A stretch of DNA of 21,466 nucleotides. Source: a virus. The stretch lies in the IMG/VR virus record IMGVR_UViG_3300042563_001803, positions 1-21,466 of that record; one strand, given 5' to 3'. This document shows, piece by piece, positions 4,840 to 20,363 of the stretch. How positions within the stretch are numbered: position 1 is the stretch's first letter; each line of letters starts with the position of its first letter. Position numbers and translations under genes: made by a program. Under the pieces are notes generated by a model. That model saw only the letters and a program-made list of their open reading frames with translations, did not search any database and was not told the origin of the DNA.

Positions 4840-5934
4840 ATGAACAGAGAAGAAATACAAACAGCAGCACTAAAAGCTACTGAAGGTAAACAAAGATGTA
4901 GTATTGTATTAGGAACTGGTGTAGGTAAGACTCTTGTTGGTCTAAAGCATATGGAACTTAATACTACATCTCTTATGAGAACATTAGTAGTTGCACCTAA
5001 AAAATCTATTTTCCAATCTTGGAAAGATGATGCAGAAAGTTTCAATATGCAGGAACAACTAAGTAGAATTACATTTACAACTTATATAAGCTTAAATAAA
5101 CACAATCCTGCTGACTTTGATGCTGTGTATTTAGATGAAGCTCATAGTTTGTTAGATAGTCATAGAGGTTTCTTGCAGTTATATAAGGGAAAAGTACTTG
5201 GTCTTACAGGTACACCTCCAAAATATAAAGATTCTGAGAAAGGTAAATTAGTACAAGAGTTTTGTCCTGTAGTATATACTTTTAAAGCAGATGATGCTAT
5301 AGAGAATGGAATACTAAATGATTATCAAATTATAGTACATGAACTATCATTAGATACTAGAAATAATTATCCTGTAACACTGAAGACTAAAAGTTTTATA
5401 ACTTCTGAGTTACAGAATTATAATTATTGGGGACAAAGACTTGAAACTGGTTCTGGTCCTGTGCATATTCTTAGAGTAATGAGAATGAAAGCTATGATGG
5501 AGTATGCTAGTAAAGAAAAATATACTAAGATACTGATGAACAGTATTACTACTAAGTGTATTGTATTTGCTAATACTCAAGATCAGGCTGACAGACTATG
5601 TACTTATTCTTATCATTCTAATAATCCTGAATCAGAAGATAATTTACAACAGTTTAAAGATGGAAATATCAGTGAGTTATCTACTGTTATGCAGCTAAAT
5701 GAAGGTGTTAACATACCTAATCTTAGACAAGGTATTATTATGCATGCATATGGTAATGAAAGAAAAGCTAGTCAGAGAATAGGTAGATTACTACGTCTTA
5801 ATCCAGATGAAAAAGCTATTGTACATATACTATGTTTTATGAATACAGTAGATGAAAAGTGGGTAAAAGAAGCTTTAGAAGGATTTGATCAAAGTAAAAT
5901 ACTTTGGAAAGATTATAATGTTTCACTATATTAG
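4840..5934 (+). CDS. SF2 DEAH-type helicase
   Basis: A compact two-domain superfamily 2 helicase of 364 residues. Motif I is G25-T-G-V-G-K-T31, motif II is D99-E-A-H102, motif III is T123-G-T125 and motif VI is Q312-R-I-G-R-L-L-R319. Between the domains lies a region with a segment aromatic in Tyr/Trp near 195-200. It is an ATP-driven DNA or RNA translocase acting in the cytoplasm, probably in phage replication, repair or recombination with the HNH nuclease 4 nt upstream. It is smaller than RecG or SNF2 proteins and nearest in size to UvsW-like phage helicases. The start has a TATTATG context. Confidence 0.9.
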   Translation: MNREEIQTAALKATEGKQRCSIVLGTGVGKTLVGLKHMELNTTSLMRTLVVAPKKSIFQSWKDDAESFNMQEQLSRITFTTYISLNKHNPADFDAVYLDEAHSLLDSHRGFLQLYKGKVLGLTGTPPKYKDSEKGKLVQEFCPVVYTFKADDAIENGILNDYQIIVHELSLDTRNNYPVTLKTKSFITSELQNYNYWGQRLETGSGPVHILRVMRMKAMMEYASKEKYTKILMNSITTKCIVFANTQDQADRLCTYSYHSNNPESEDNLQQFKDGNISELSTVMQLNEGVNIPNLRQGIIMHAYGNERKASQRIGRLLRLNPDEKAIVHILCFMNTVDEKWVKEALEGFDQSKILWKDYNVSLY

Positions 5935-5938
5935 TATT

Positions 5939-6193
5939 ATGGAAGATAATAAAACACATAAGCTGGTTCTATATAATGATGACAAAATTAGTTTTCCATA
6001 TGTTATGGCATGTCTAATAAGATTGTGTAATTATGAACCTAATCAAGCAGAGCAATGTGCATTAATTGCACATGACAAAGGAGAATGTGCTATTAAACAT
6101 GGTACATATGAGGATATGTTTGATTTAATGTATAATTTTGAAGCTTTAGAAATTAAAGTAAAAATTAAGGAATATGCGGGCAATATGTATTGA
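5939..6193 (+). CDS. clpS: ClpS-like adaptor protein
   Basis: An 84-residue protein matching the ClpS core. K-L-V-L-Y-N13-D14-D15 corresponds to the ClpS strand and loop that bind the alpha-amino group of N-degrons (E. coli N34, D35, D36). H45 in A-L-I-A-H-D-K-G corresponds to E. coli H66. The hydrophobic pocket is altered: F19 aligns with E. coli M40 and A41 with M62. ClpS delivers N-degron substrates to ClpAP. A phage copy could redirect the host ClpA/ClpC protease or protect chosen proteins. It lacks the long N-terminal extension used in ClpA delivery. The frame is open from 5885, but ATTATG at 5939 just after the helicase stop is the right start. The end overlaps the next gene by 20 nt. 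Confidence 0.8.
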   Translation: MEDNKTHKLVLYNDDKISFPYVMACLIRLCNYEPNQAEQCALIAHDKGECAIKHGTYEDMFDLMYNFEALEIKVKIKEYAGNMY

Positions 6194-6449
6194 TGATACT
6201 AATAAACCAAGTAGAGTTCCACAGAATGAGTGGATTAAAGAGGGTGAAACTTATACTATTACTAGGTTTGTAAGAATGGAATTAGAAAAAGATAAGTTTG
6301 GAGTTCTTTTAAAAGAAGTTCAGCTTAGTTCTAAGTCCTTTCCATATGAACTATATGATGCTGAAAGATTTCTACCTCTTGACTTATTAACTAATGCCCT
6401 TCATAAAGAAGAAGAATCAGTATTAGAAGCTGACTTAGAGTTAGTTTAA
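6174..6449 (+). CDS. Small beta-type phage protein (91 aa)
   Basis: The protein opens M-R-A-I-C-I-D-D, then I-K-E-G-E-T-Y-T-I and later F-P-Y-E-L-Y-D-A-E-R-F. This pattern of short strands around a W-x-x-x-G-x-x-Y-T-I core is one I know from small SH3/KOW-like proteins common in Bacteroidota phages. The acidic C-terminal tail (about 78-91) is unstructured-looking. The start lies 20 nt inside the ClpS-like gene, so the two are probably co-translated. The function is unknown. Confidence 0.75.
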   Translation: MRAICIDDTNKPSRVPQNEWIKEGETYTITRFVRMELEKDKFGVLLKEVQLSSKSFPYELYDAERFLPLDLLTNALHKEEESVLEADLELV

Positions 6450-6677: not shown

Positions 6678-7112
6678 ATGGAAGATTATAAAATAGAAGA
6701 AGTTATTAGATCTCTTAAAGCTTTAGACAGAAATTCTAGAAAGAGATCTCTTGTAGACCAAAGAAGTTACTTGTTTGGTTTATTACATCAGAAATTTGAG
6801 ATATCTGAACAAAAAATTGCTCATCTTACAGGATTTACTAGATCTAGAGTAAACTATGCAAGAAGAATGCCTGTCCAGTTTATGAATGATGAATCTTATC
6901 AACAAAATGTTTATGTCTATGCACAACTTTATCCACATAATTTTAGAAAATCTTATGCAGTTAAGTCTCATAGACATCATACTATTAAATTAGTAATTGA
7001 TAATAAAACAGGAAGAAAACTAAAAAGAATTAAAGGCATTCTTAATCATAGTGATATAAGAGACACAGTTAAACATTTATTAGAAAAAAGTTTGAAGTTA
7101 TGGGAAGAGTAA
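6678..7112 (+). CDS. Helix-turn-helix DNA-binding protein
   Basis: A 144-residue basic protein. Residues 43-63 (S-E-Q-K-I-A-H-L-T-G-F-T-R-S-R-V-N-Y-A-R-R) form a good helix-turn-helix, with T51-G52 at the turn and an Arg-rich recognition helix. The C-terminal half is basic and rich in His/Lys with a final amphipathic helix. It probably acts as a transcription regulator or DNA-organising protein of the phage; its target is not known. The 18-bp palindrome at 3297 is one candidate site. The end overlaps the next gene by 13 nt. Confidence 0.7.
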   Translation: MEDYKIEEVIRSLKALDRNSRKRSLVDQRSYLFGLLHQKFEISEQKIAHLTGFTRSRVNYARRMPVQFMNDESYQQNVYVYAQLYPHNFRKSYAVKSHRHHTIKLVIDNKTGRKLKRIKGILNHSDIRDTVKHLLEKSLKLWEE

Positions 7113-12064: not shown

Positions 12065-12778
12065 ATGAAAGAAAAATTAAACATAGAAGAAATTAAACAA
12101 AAAATATTTGATAAACTTCAACCATCAGGTTGGGGACAAAAACTTAAACCTTTTTTATTTAGTGGAGATTTTGACAATATACTTATGCAATTACATAAGT
12201 TATCTATTTTAAACAAAAAGTTTACTCCAACAGTTAAAGATTTTTTTAGGGCATTTGAAGAATGTCCTTATGATGAACTTAAAGTTATTATGGTTGGTCA
12301 AGAGCCATACTTGAATGTAGGATCTTCAGATGGACTTGCATTTAGTTGTAGCAATAATCCTAGAATAGAAACAAGTTTAAAATTTATACTTGATGAAATA
12401 AATAAAACAGTTTATGATGGACATAATGTATCTATAGATCCAGATCTTAAAAGATGGAGTAATCAAGGAATATTATTACTTAATACTTCATTAACTTCAC
12501 AAGTATGTACATCAGGTAGACATTATGAAATATGGAAACCATTTATGGCATATTTATTTGACTTATTAAATCATAATGAAAATAAATTAATATATCTTTA
12601 CATAGGAAAAAAAGCTCAAGAATGGGCTGATTCTATAGATGAAGATAACTATAAATTTTTAGTAACTCATCCTATTAATCCTGCTAGTTTACATACTAGA
12701 AGATGGGACTCTAATAACATATTTTTAAAAGTACAATTATTAGTACAAGAACATTATAATATTAATATAATTTGGTAA
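12065..12778 (+). CDS. ung: Family-1 uracil-DNA glycosylase-like protein
   Basis: A 237-residue protein with the family-1 UDG fold. V-I-M-V-G78-Q-E80-P-Y-L83 corresponds to the water-activating motif G-Q-D-P-Y-H, S-D-G-L-A-F-S follows, then G135-I-L-L-L-N-T-S-L-T, and H202-P-I-N-P-A-S-L corresponds to the H-P-S-P-L-S loop with its catalytic histidine. Two positions are non-standard: the catalytic Asp is Glu (E80) and the following His is Leu (L83). It would remove uracil from phage DNA, if active. The changed site may slow catalysis or turn the protein into a uracil-DNA reader. It opens the replication run. Confidence 0.85.
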   Translation: MKEKLNIEEIKQKIFDKLQPSGWGQKLKPFLFSGDFDNILMQLHKLSILNKKFTPTVKDFFRAFEECPYDELKVIMVGQEPYLNVGSSDGLAFSCSNNPRIETSLKFILDEINKTVYDGHNVSIDPDLKRWSNQGILLLNTSLTSQVCTSGRHYEIWKPFMAYLFDLLNHNENKLIYLYIGKKAQEWADSIDEDNYKFLVTHPINPASLHTRRWDSNNIFLKVQLLVQEHYNINIIW

Positions 12779-18791: not shown

Positions 18792-19198
18792 TGATTTTTA
18801 ATAAAGAAGAAACAAAGAACTTATTAAACATGTTAAGGTCACCTGATGATGAAAATGCTGTAATAGCATTTGAATCTTTAAAAAATGTTGACATAAAGGC
18901 ATATATTGGAGAACTAATTGTATTATATAAGTTTGGTAAACAAACAAATGATGTTTGGGAAGCTAATTGTCCTAAGTGTTTTACTGCTATAAGTAAAGAA
19001 ATAGATATAGATAAAACATTATCTACTGGTGAATGTCTTTCAGCCATGACATTTAATAAAGTTAGTATGTATTCTATAGAGCTTTTTATGGAATTATTTA
19101 CAGAAAATATGGTTGGCTTTTTAGGTCAAATGGGATATCCTGTTGACAAATTTGATATAATATTAAAACTAAAAGATGGACAAAGCACAAAGTCTTAG
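18791..19198 (+). CDS. CxxC-containing hypothetical protein (135 aa)
   Basis: A 135-residue helical protein with one C-P-K-C pair near residues 57-60 (N-C-P-K-C-F-T-A-I). The rest is rich in Phe, Met and Leu helices. The start overlaps the DUF6915-like stop and the end overlaps the VWA-type gene by 23 nt, so it is probably co-translated with them. The family is not recognised. It may be a subunit of the downstream VWA/MoxR assembly. Confidence 0.65.
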   Translation: MIFNKEETKNLLNMLRSPDDENAVIAFESLKNVDIKAYIGELIVLYKFGKQTNDVWEANCPKCFTAISKEIDIDKTLSTGECLSAMTFNKVSMYSIELFMELFTENMVGFLGQMGYPVDKFDIILKLKDGQSTKS

Positions 19199-20363
19199 TA
19201 AGACAGCAAAAGAACTAATGTTAAAAGAGCCCTATTATGGGTTCTTTCTACTAATGCTAAATAAATTATGGGACAGTAAAAAAGTTCCAACTGCTGGTGT
19301 AAGCAAAAATGGTATTAATTACCAACTATGTATTAATGAAGAATTCTGGATGGGTCTAAGTGAAGATCATAAACTTGGTCTACTTAAACATGAATTACTT
19401 CATATTGCATTTGGACATCTTACTACTTACTTTAAGTTTAGTAATCATAAGATGGCTAATATAGCAATGGATATGGAGATTAACCAATATATTGATGAAG
19501 ATTGGTTACCAAAAGGTGGTATAGATATAAATGACTATGAAGATCTTGATCTTGATAGAAAAGCAGGTGCTAGATATTATTATGATAAACTATCACAAGC
19601 TAAAGATGAAAAAGATAAAAATGGTACATCTGGAGATGAAAACTTTGATAAGCTATGTGATAGCATGGATGGAGATGGAGAAGGTTTACCTGATCATAGT
19701 ACATGGTCAGACTTTGAAGATCTTACTGAAGCTGAGCAAAAGCTAATTGAAAAACAATTACAGAAAGTTCTATCAGATGCTAAAGAGCAAACTGTTAAGA
19801 AAAGAGGTAATATTCCTGGAGAGATTGATGGAGTTATTATTATAGAAGAAATTGTACCACCCAAGTTTGATTGGAGAGGGTATATGAGAAGATTTACTGG
19901 TATAAGCACAAAAGTGTTTACTAAGAAAATCCGTAAAAAGGAAAATAAAAGATATGATGGTAATCCTGGTCTTAAGATCAAGATGAAACAACATATGTTA
20001 TTAGGTATAGATACCTCAGGTTCTGTAAGTGATACAGAATTAATTGAGTTTATGAATGAGATTCATCATATTTATAAAGCAGGAGTAGATGTCACTATAA
20101 TTCAGTGTGACACACAAATAAGATCAGTAGAACCTTATAGAGGTAAGAGTGATCTTGAAGTACATGGTAGAGGAGGAACTGAGTTTGATCCTGTCTTAGA
20201 GTATTATAATGAAAATAACAAGAAATATACAAGCCTAGTATATTTTACTGATGGAGAGTGTAATGCAAGAGTAAAACCAAAAGGTAATGTCCTTTGGGTT
20301 ATATCAGAGAGATCAGAAATGAATAATGATCTGCCAGGCAAAGTAATTAAGTTAGAACTATAA
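19176..20363 (+). CDS. VWA-like protein with N-terminal metallopeptidase-type domain (DUF2201-like)
   Basis: A 395-residue protein. The N-terminal domain carries an intact zinc-protease-like H72-E-L-L-H76 with H81 five residues on. A charged linker (about 135-210) joins it to a VWA-type domain with a MIDAS site: D279-T-S281-G-S283, T335 and D359. Proteins of this layout (DUF2201-like) usually pair with MoxR-type AAA+ ATPases, and one begins 13 nt downstream. The likely role is metal-dependent binding, and perhaps cleavage, of a partner protein remodelled by the ATPase. The target is unknown. The gene overlaps its upstream neighbour by 23 nt. Confidence 0.85.
   Translation: MDKAQSLSKTAKELMLKEPYYGFFLLMLNKLWDSKKVPTAGVSKNGINYQLCINEEFWMGLSEDHKLGLLKHELLHIAFGHLTTYFKFSNHKMANIAMDMEINQYIDEDWLPKGGIDINDYEDLDLDRKAGARYYYDKLSQAKDEKDKNGTSGDENFDKLCDSMDGDGEGLPDHSTWSDFEDLTEAEQKLIEKQLQKVLSDAKEQTVKKRGNIPGEIDGVIIIEEIVPPKFDWRGYMRRFTGISTKVFTKKIRKKENKRYDGNPGLKIKMKQHMLLGIDTSGSVSDTELIEFMNEIHHIYKAGVDVTIIQCDTQIRSVEPYRGKSDLEVHGRGGTEFDPVLEYYNENNKKYTSLVYFTDGECNARVKPKGNVLWVISERSEMNNDLPGKVIKLEL

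Follow-up and report, generated by a model that had tools for sequence, protein, structure and literature searches.

ClpS adaptors encoded by phages have been described before, in jumbo phages (PMC7824862) and in Agrobacterium phage Atu_ph07, a ClpS-carrying phage for which seven Clp proteins were reported (PMC6102473), and several annotated phage ClpS models can be found in BFVD. In E. coli, delivery is driven by the pore loops of ClpA pulling on the N-terminal extension of ClpS: residues 2-15 are gripped by the D2 ring and residues 16-26 by the D1 ring, and delivery is inhibited when entry of the extension is blocked (PMC9663308). Moreover, E79, E82 and K84 of E. coli ClpS contact ClpA (PMC12493166). 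Little is known about the bacterial N-degron pathway during phage infection. Here, we analyzed a ClpS-like gene in a 21,466-base virus record (the whole record is hereafter the window), which also carries replication genes (DnaB-like and Toprim).

The gene lies at positions 5939-6193 of the plus strand and its translation of 84 residues, MEDNKTHKLVLYNDDKISFPYVMACLIRLCNYEPNQAEQCALIAHDKGECAIKHGTYEDMFDLMYNFEALEIKVKIKEYAGNMY, is a member of the ClpS domain family PF02617 (E=3.7e-13; score 49.5 bits, gathering cut-off 23), a profile that is also matched by 40 of 40 aligned relatives. As expected for a divergent sequence, the protein scores far below the cut-offs of the NCBIfam ClpS equivalogs. An AlphaFold2 model, obtained with a 40-row alignment, has a mean pLDDT of 91.9 and the order strand-helix-helix-strand-helix-strand, and its best PDB matches are ClpS in every case, among them the M. 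smegmatis protein (9ayo_B; Z 15.6, rmsd 0.9 over 76 residues) and that of E. coli (3o2b; VIA Z 14.3, 78 residues). Profile, fold and phylogeny thus bear out the initial annotation, which had recognized a phage-encoded ClpS-like protein and had proposed the AlphaFold comparison as a check. With E. coli ClpS (1mbu, 3o2b and 1r6o) the phage protein shares the fold and the alpha-amino ligands, but it carries Phe, Ala and Ala at the positions of M40, M62 and V65, lacks the extension and, as in Bacteroidota ClpS, is shorter after helix 3.

We then examined the N-degron pocket. Residues N13, D14 and D15 (5975-5983) and H45 align with N34, D35, D36 and H66 of E. coli ClpS, so their earlier assignment as alpha-amino-binding residues was correct, and they are strongly conserved in the phage family (N13 and D14 in 46/46 sequences, D15 in 45/46 and H45 in 44/46). 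F19 (5993-5995), at the gatekeeper position, aligns with M40, while the stretch from A41 to A44-H45 (6059-6073) holds the equivalents of M62, V65 and H66. The pocket had also been called altered, and Phe and Ala do differ from the E. coli residues M40 and M62; both, however, are ordinary in cellular Bacteroidota ClpS. Of 60 such proteins, taken as the best-scoring matches of the family searches, 60/60 carry Phe at the M40 position, while at M62 24 have Ala, 20 Ser and 16 Thr, which indicates that F19 and A41 represent the pocket of the host lineage and rules out a phage innovation at these sites. A cellular parallel, with Tyr at M40 and Ala at M62, is also provided by Leptospira ClpS1 (PMC12493166), which differs from the phage protein in being cellular and in having an N-terminal extension. 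In two phage members (L075 and L093) Asp replaces the pocket His, as reported for Leptospira ClpS1. The change typical of the phages in this region is A44, since 35/46 phage sequences have Ala at the V65 position, where almost every host has Val or Ile; in addition, the T38 position is Ile in the window protein and mostly Asn in hosts.

In contrast to the pocket, the N-terminal part of the protein departs clearly from that of cellular homologs. Alignment places the beginning of the phage protein at about residue 22 of E. coli ClpS, and the flexible extension of about 20-25 residues expected of a delivery adaptor is absent from the phage family: in 46/46 distinct members only about 12 residues precede the NDD motif, and in the window protein codons 1-6 (5939-5956) form a residual stub, MEDNKT, in place of the extension of about 25 residues. 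In cellular Bacteroidota ClpS, by comparison, the nearest in-frame ATG lies a median of 28 residues before NDD, and only 2/58 have an ATG 14 residues or fewer before it, each with another ATG further upstream. Translation starts at the ATG at 5939, and several relatives (including L032, L068, L087 and L090-L092) have an in-frame stop 1-6 codons 5' of the equivalent ATG, which shows that the short N-terminal form is real. These stops also exclude a longer reading frame from the TTG at 5885 or from upstream ATGs; the open frame seen there in the window is an artefact of the overlap with the preceding helicase gene, and where other relatives have an open frame upstream, it overlaps that gene as well.

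The second departure concerns helix alpha-3 (Y57-A69; 6107-6145, with limits taken from the model), the equivalent of the ClpA-docking helix. As a first MAFFT alignment had placed gaps in this helix, a gapless alignment was used instead, given that the phage and host cores are of equal length. The mean Jensen-Shannon divergence between phage and host sequences was 0.11 in the pocket and 0.45 in helix 3, with a value of 0.29 at the remaining positions, the pocket being the least and helix 3 the most diverged of all elements (P=0.001 for the pocket and P=0.006 for helix 3 versus all other sites, with sites taken as independent and shared ancestry uncorrected). The position of E79 is mostly Glu or Asp in hosts, but Leu, Met or Ile in 43/46 phage sequences; that of E82 is most commonly Lys in hosts, but Phe, Leu or Tyr in 46/46 phage sequences; and the following position is Pro in 44/56 hosts, but Glu, Asp or Gln in 46/46 phage sequences. 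The window protein has F61 at the E82 position and L63 at that of K84, a lysine also missing from Bacteroidota hosts, and, unlike most of its family, it keeps a Glu (E58) at the E79 position.

Searches of IMG/VR with the alignment yielded 436 relatives, and the best 80 of the 436 were read. The gene is under purifying selection, with dN/dS values of 0.06 against the relative L002, 0.15 against L003 and a family median of 0.27. In the phylogenetic tree, a branch with a support of 67 sets the 46 phage sequences apart (94 for 41 of them), and this clade sits among Bacteroidota ClpS, in a tree built on few columns and with many forks open. The phage proteins resemble cellular Bacteroidota ClpS (PF02617) in core length, N-degron ligands, the Phe/Ala(Ser,Thr) pocket and their place in the tree, while differing from them in the missing extension of about 25 residues, in helix 3, in position 65 and in several surface positions. 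A second phage clade, found with huge-phage sequences, comprises 32 distinct ClpS proteins, all with 25-26 residues before NDD; of these, 31/32 carry Glu or Asp at the E79 position and 32/32 Val or Ile at that of V65. Because this second clade combines the full extension with host-like E79 residues, truncation and helix-3 change occur together in one clade and do not characterize phage ClpS in general. The query genomes of the second clade (LR745206, LR756502 and LR756504; L162, L163 and L164, respectively) measure 635-642 kb and encode 2-3 ClpP proteins each. A ClpC-like double-AAA protein without a recognized Clp N-domain was also observed in all three, alongside the full-extension ClpS.

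The ClpS proteins of the huge phages LR756502, LR756504 and LR745206 have a long extension and come with the phage's own ClpP and ClpC-like AAA proteins, while on the contigs of the window's family ClpS was found alone. Neither ClpP, nor ClpA/C-type AAA proteins (AAA_2), nor L/F-transferase was detected in 15 long family contigs, which may be fragments. In Bacteroidota, the host phylum of this virus family, ClpS was present in 195/198 and L/F-transferase in 40/41 of the cellular genomes sampled, and Clp_N proteins, with ClpB counted in, in 41/41. Being common in Bacteroidota, these components would make host N-degron proteolysis available to such a phage, for use or for counteraction.

Based on these observations, we tentatively propose, with a probability of roughly 0.45, that the phage ClpS binds N-degrons in competition with host ClpS and does not deliver to ClpCP. 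The protein would be a Bacteroidota-type ClpS core in which the pocket has been kept, the N-terminal extension lost and the unfoldase-docking helix rebuilt. During infection it would most likely bind proteins with N-terminal Leu, Phe, Tyr or Trp, which would then be withheld from host ClpS-ClpC(A)P, so that it could shield N-degrons or serve as a competitive anti-adaptor; the steps we infer are N-degron binding, failed delivery, competition with host ClpS and a benefit to the phage. For a ClpS in which recognition is kept and the part that is pulled on is absent, binding without delivery is what the E. coli work leads one to expect, and it is for this reason that we prefer this explanation over the others considered. 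A protein docking in a modified manner on host ClpC and delivering chosen N-degron proteins, such as host or defence factors, for degradation would also account for the kept pocket ligands and for a helix 3 that is changed and yet conserved among the phages of the clade, a pattern expected of a re-tuned interface, and delivery to host ClpAP is indeed the published view of jumbo-phage ClpS (PMC7824862). Nevertheless, we regard such an active adaptor as less likely, since none of the 46 members has the extension that ClpA pulls in E. coli. Of the two functions suggested in the initial annotation, reprogrammed degradation and a decoy, the decoy accordingly seems to fit the sequences better, the delivery tail being absent.

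Loss of the extension would also suit a protein that occupies the N-domain of ClpC without delivering anything, thereby lowering host Clp proteolysis in general, and structures of ClpS in complex with the ClpA N-domain exist (1r6o and 1mbu, both among the PDB matches of the model). We consider this improbable, however, as the docking helix is the very element that has diverged most, with hydrophobic residues in most members where hosts have charged ones, and as a pure blocker would have no use for conserved N-degron ligands. Those ligands, which together with the pocket are the least diverged from cellular ClpS, also make it less probable still that the fold has been re-used without any link to Clp, for example to bind a phage protein together with the product of the downstream gene, even though the tight coupling to that gene (a 20-base overlap and joint loss in two loci) and the Asp in place of the His ligand in two members would be compatible with it. 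Regarding the proposed competition with host ClpS, three points weigh against it or temper it: the rules of delivery are those of E. coli ClpAP, and the extension may be dispensable for ClpC of Bacteroidota; the window protein itself has a Glu (E58) at the E79 position; and, as all phage sequences form one clade, the differences may partly reflect lineage drift.

Phage ClpS as such is already known. No description of the truncated variant came up in the literature searched, nor did a study of phage ClpS as an anti-adaptor or a sub-jumbo phage clade whose lone ClpS lacks the extension and has an altered docking helix. A phage ClpS in which recognition is kept and the delivery part is lost would offer a small, clean protein for probing the N-degron pathway in infection, and the clade represents a natural test of whether ClpC needs the N-terminal extension as ClpA does.

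The surroundings of the gene are well conserved. In every testable locus (78/78), an SF2 helicase gene (ResIII and Helicase_C in Pfam; 4840-5934, plus strand) lies directly 5' of clpS, and clpS adjoins the helicase in 75/77 uncut helicase loci, while a small conserved gene (6174-6449, plus strand; M[KR]xICID...ADLEL[IV]), which overlaps the 3' end of clpS by 20 bases, is adjacent in 75/79 loci. The initially described placement of clpS, with an SF2 helicase on one side and a small conserved phage protein on the other, therefore holds: both neighbors are real and their order is kept. In two loci (L238 and L240; 3592-3624 in each) clpS and the small gene are absent together, and a homolog of the window gene at 6678-7112 directly follows the helicase. 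In the two examined of the four exceptions to the pairing of clpS and the small gene (L003 and L037) clpS and its partner are split by a GIY-YIG-like endonuclease gene, named from its sequence, which is inserted exactly at their junction. Among isolated phages, those of Flavobacterium, Bacteroides and Cellulophaga carry the nearest relatives of the helicase, none of which reaches 60% identity, and a prophage search of 395 Bacteroidota genomes, run without a positive control, gave no helicase match at 1e-40.

The small gene product had no Pfam and no solid PHROG match, and its AlphaFold2 model reached a pLDDT of 74 with weak SH3-like matches; with a model of such modest confidence, an HspQ/YccV-like partner is no more than a possible reading. 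Its conserved C-terminus (ADLEL[IV]/ELDLV) is reminiscent of sliding-clamp-binding peptides. The conserved C-terminal tail of the phage ClpS was discarded as a phage-specific functional motif: the small gene begins (M[KR]xICID) within its last codons, and this overlap explains most of their conservation. A candidate promoter, TTTGTATATT, was dropped as well, as it showed no enrichment in the window. Elsewhere in the window, positions 19176-20363 encode a DUF2201 metallopeptidase-VWA protein; many phages have relatives of it, and it may be a source of new N-termini. Positions 12065-12778 encode a protein of the Uracil-DNA glycosylase superfamily, here carried in a phage genome.
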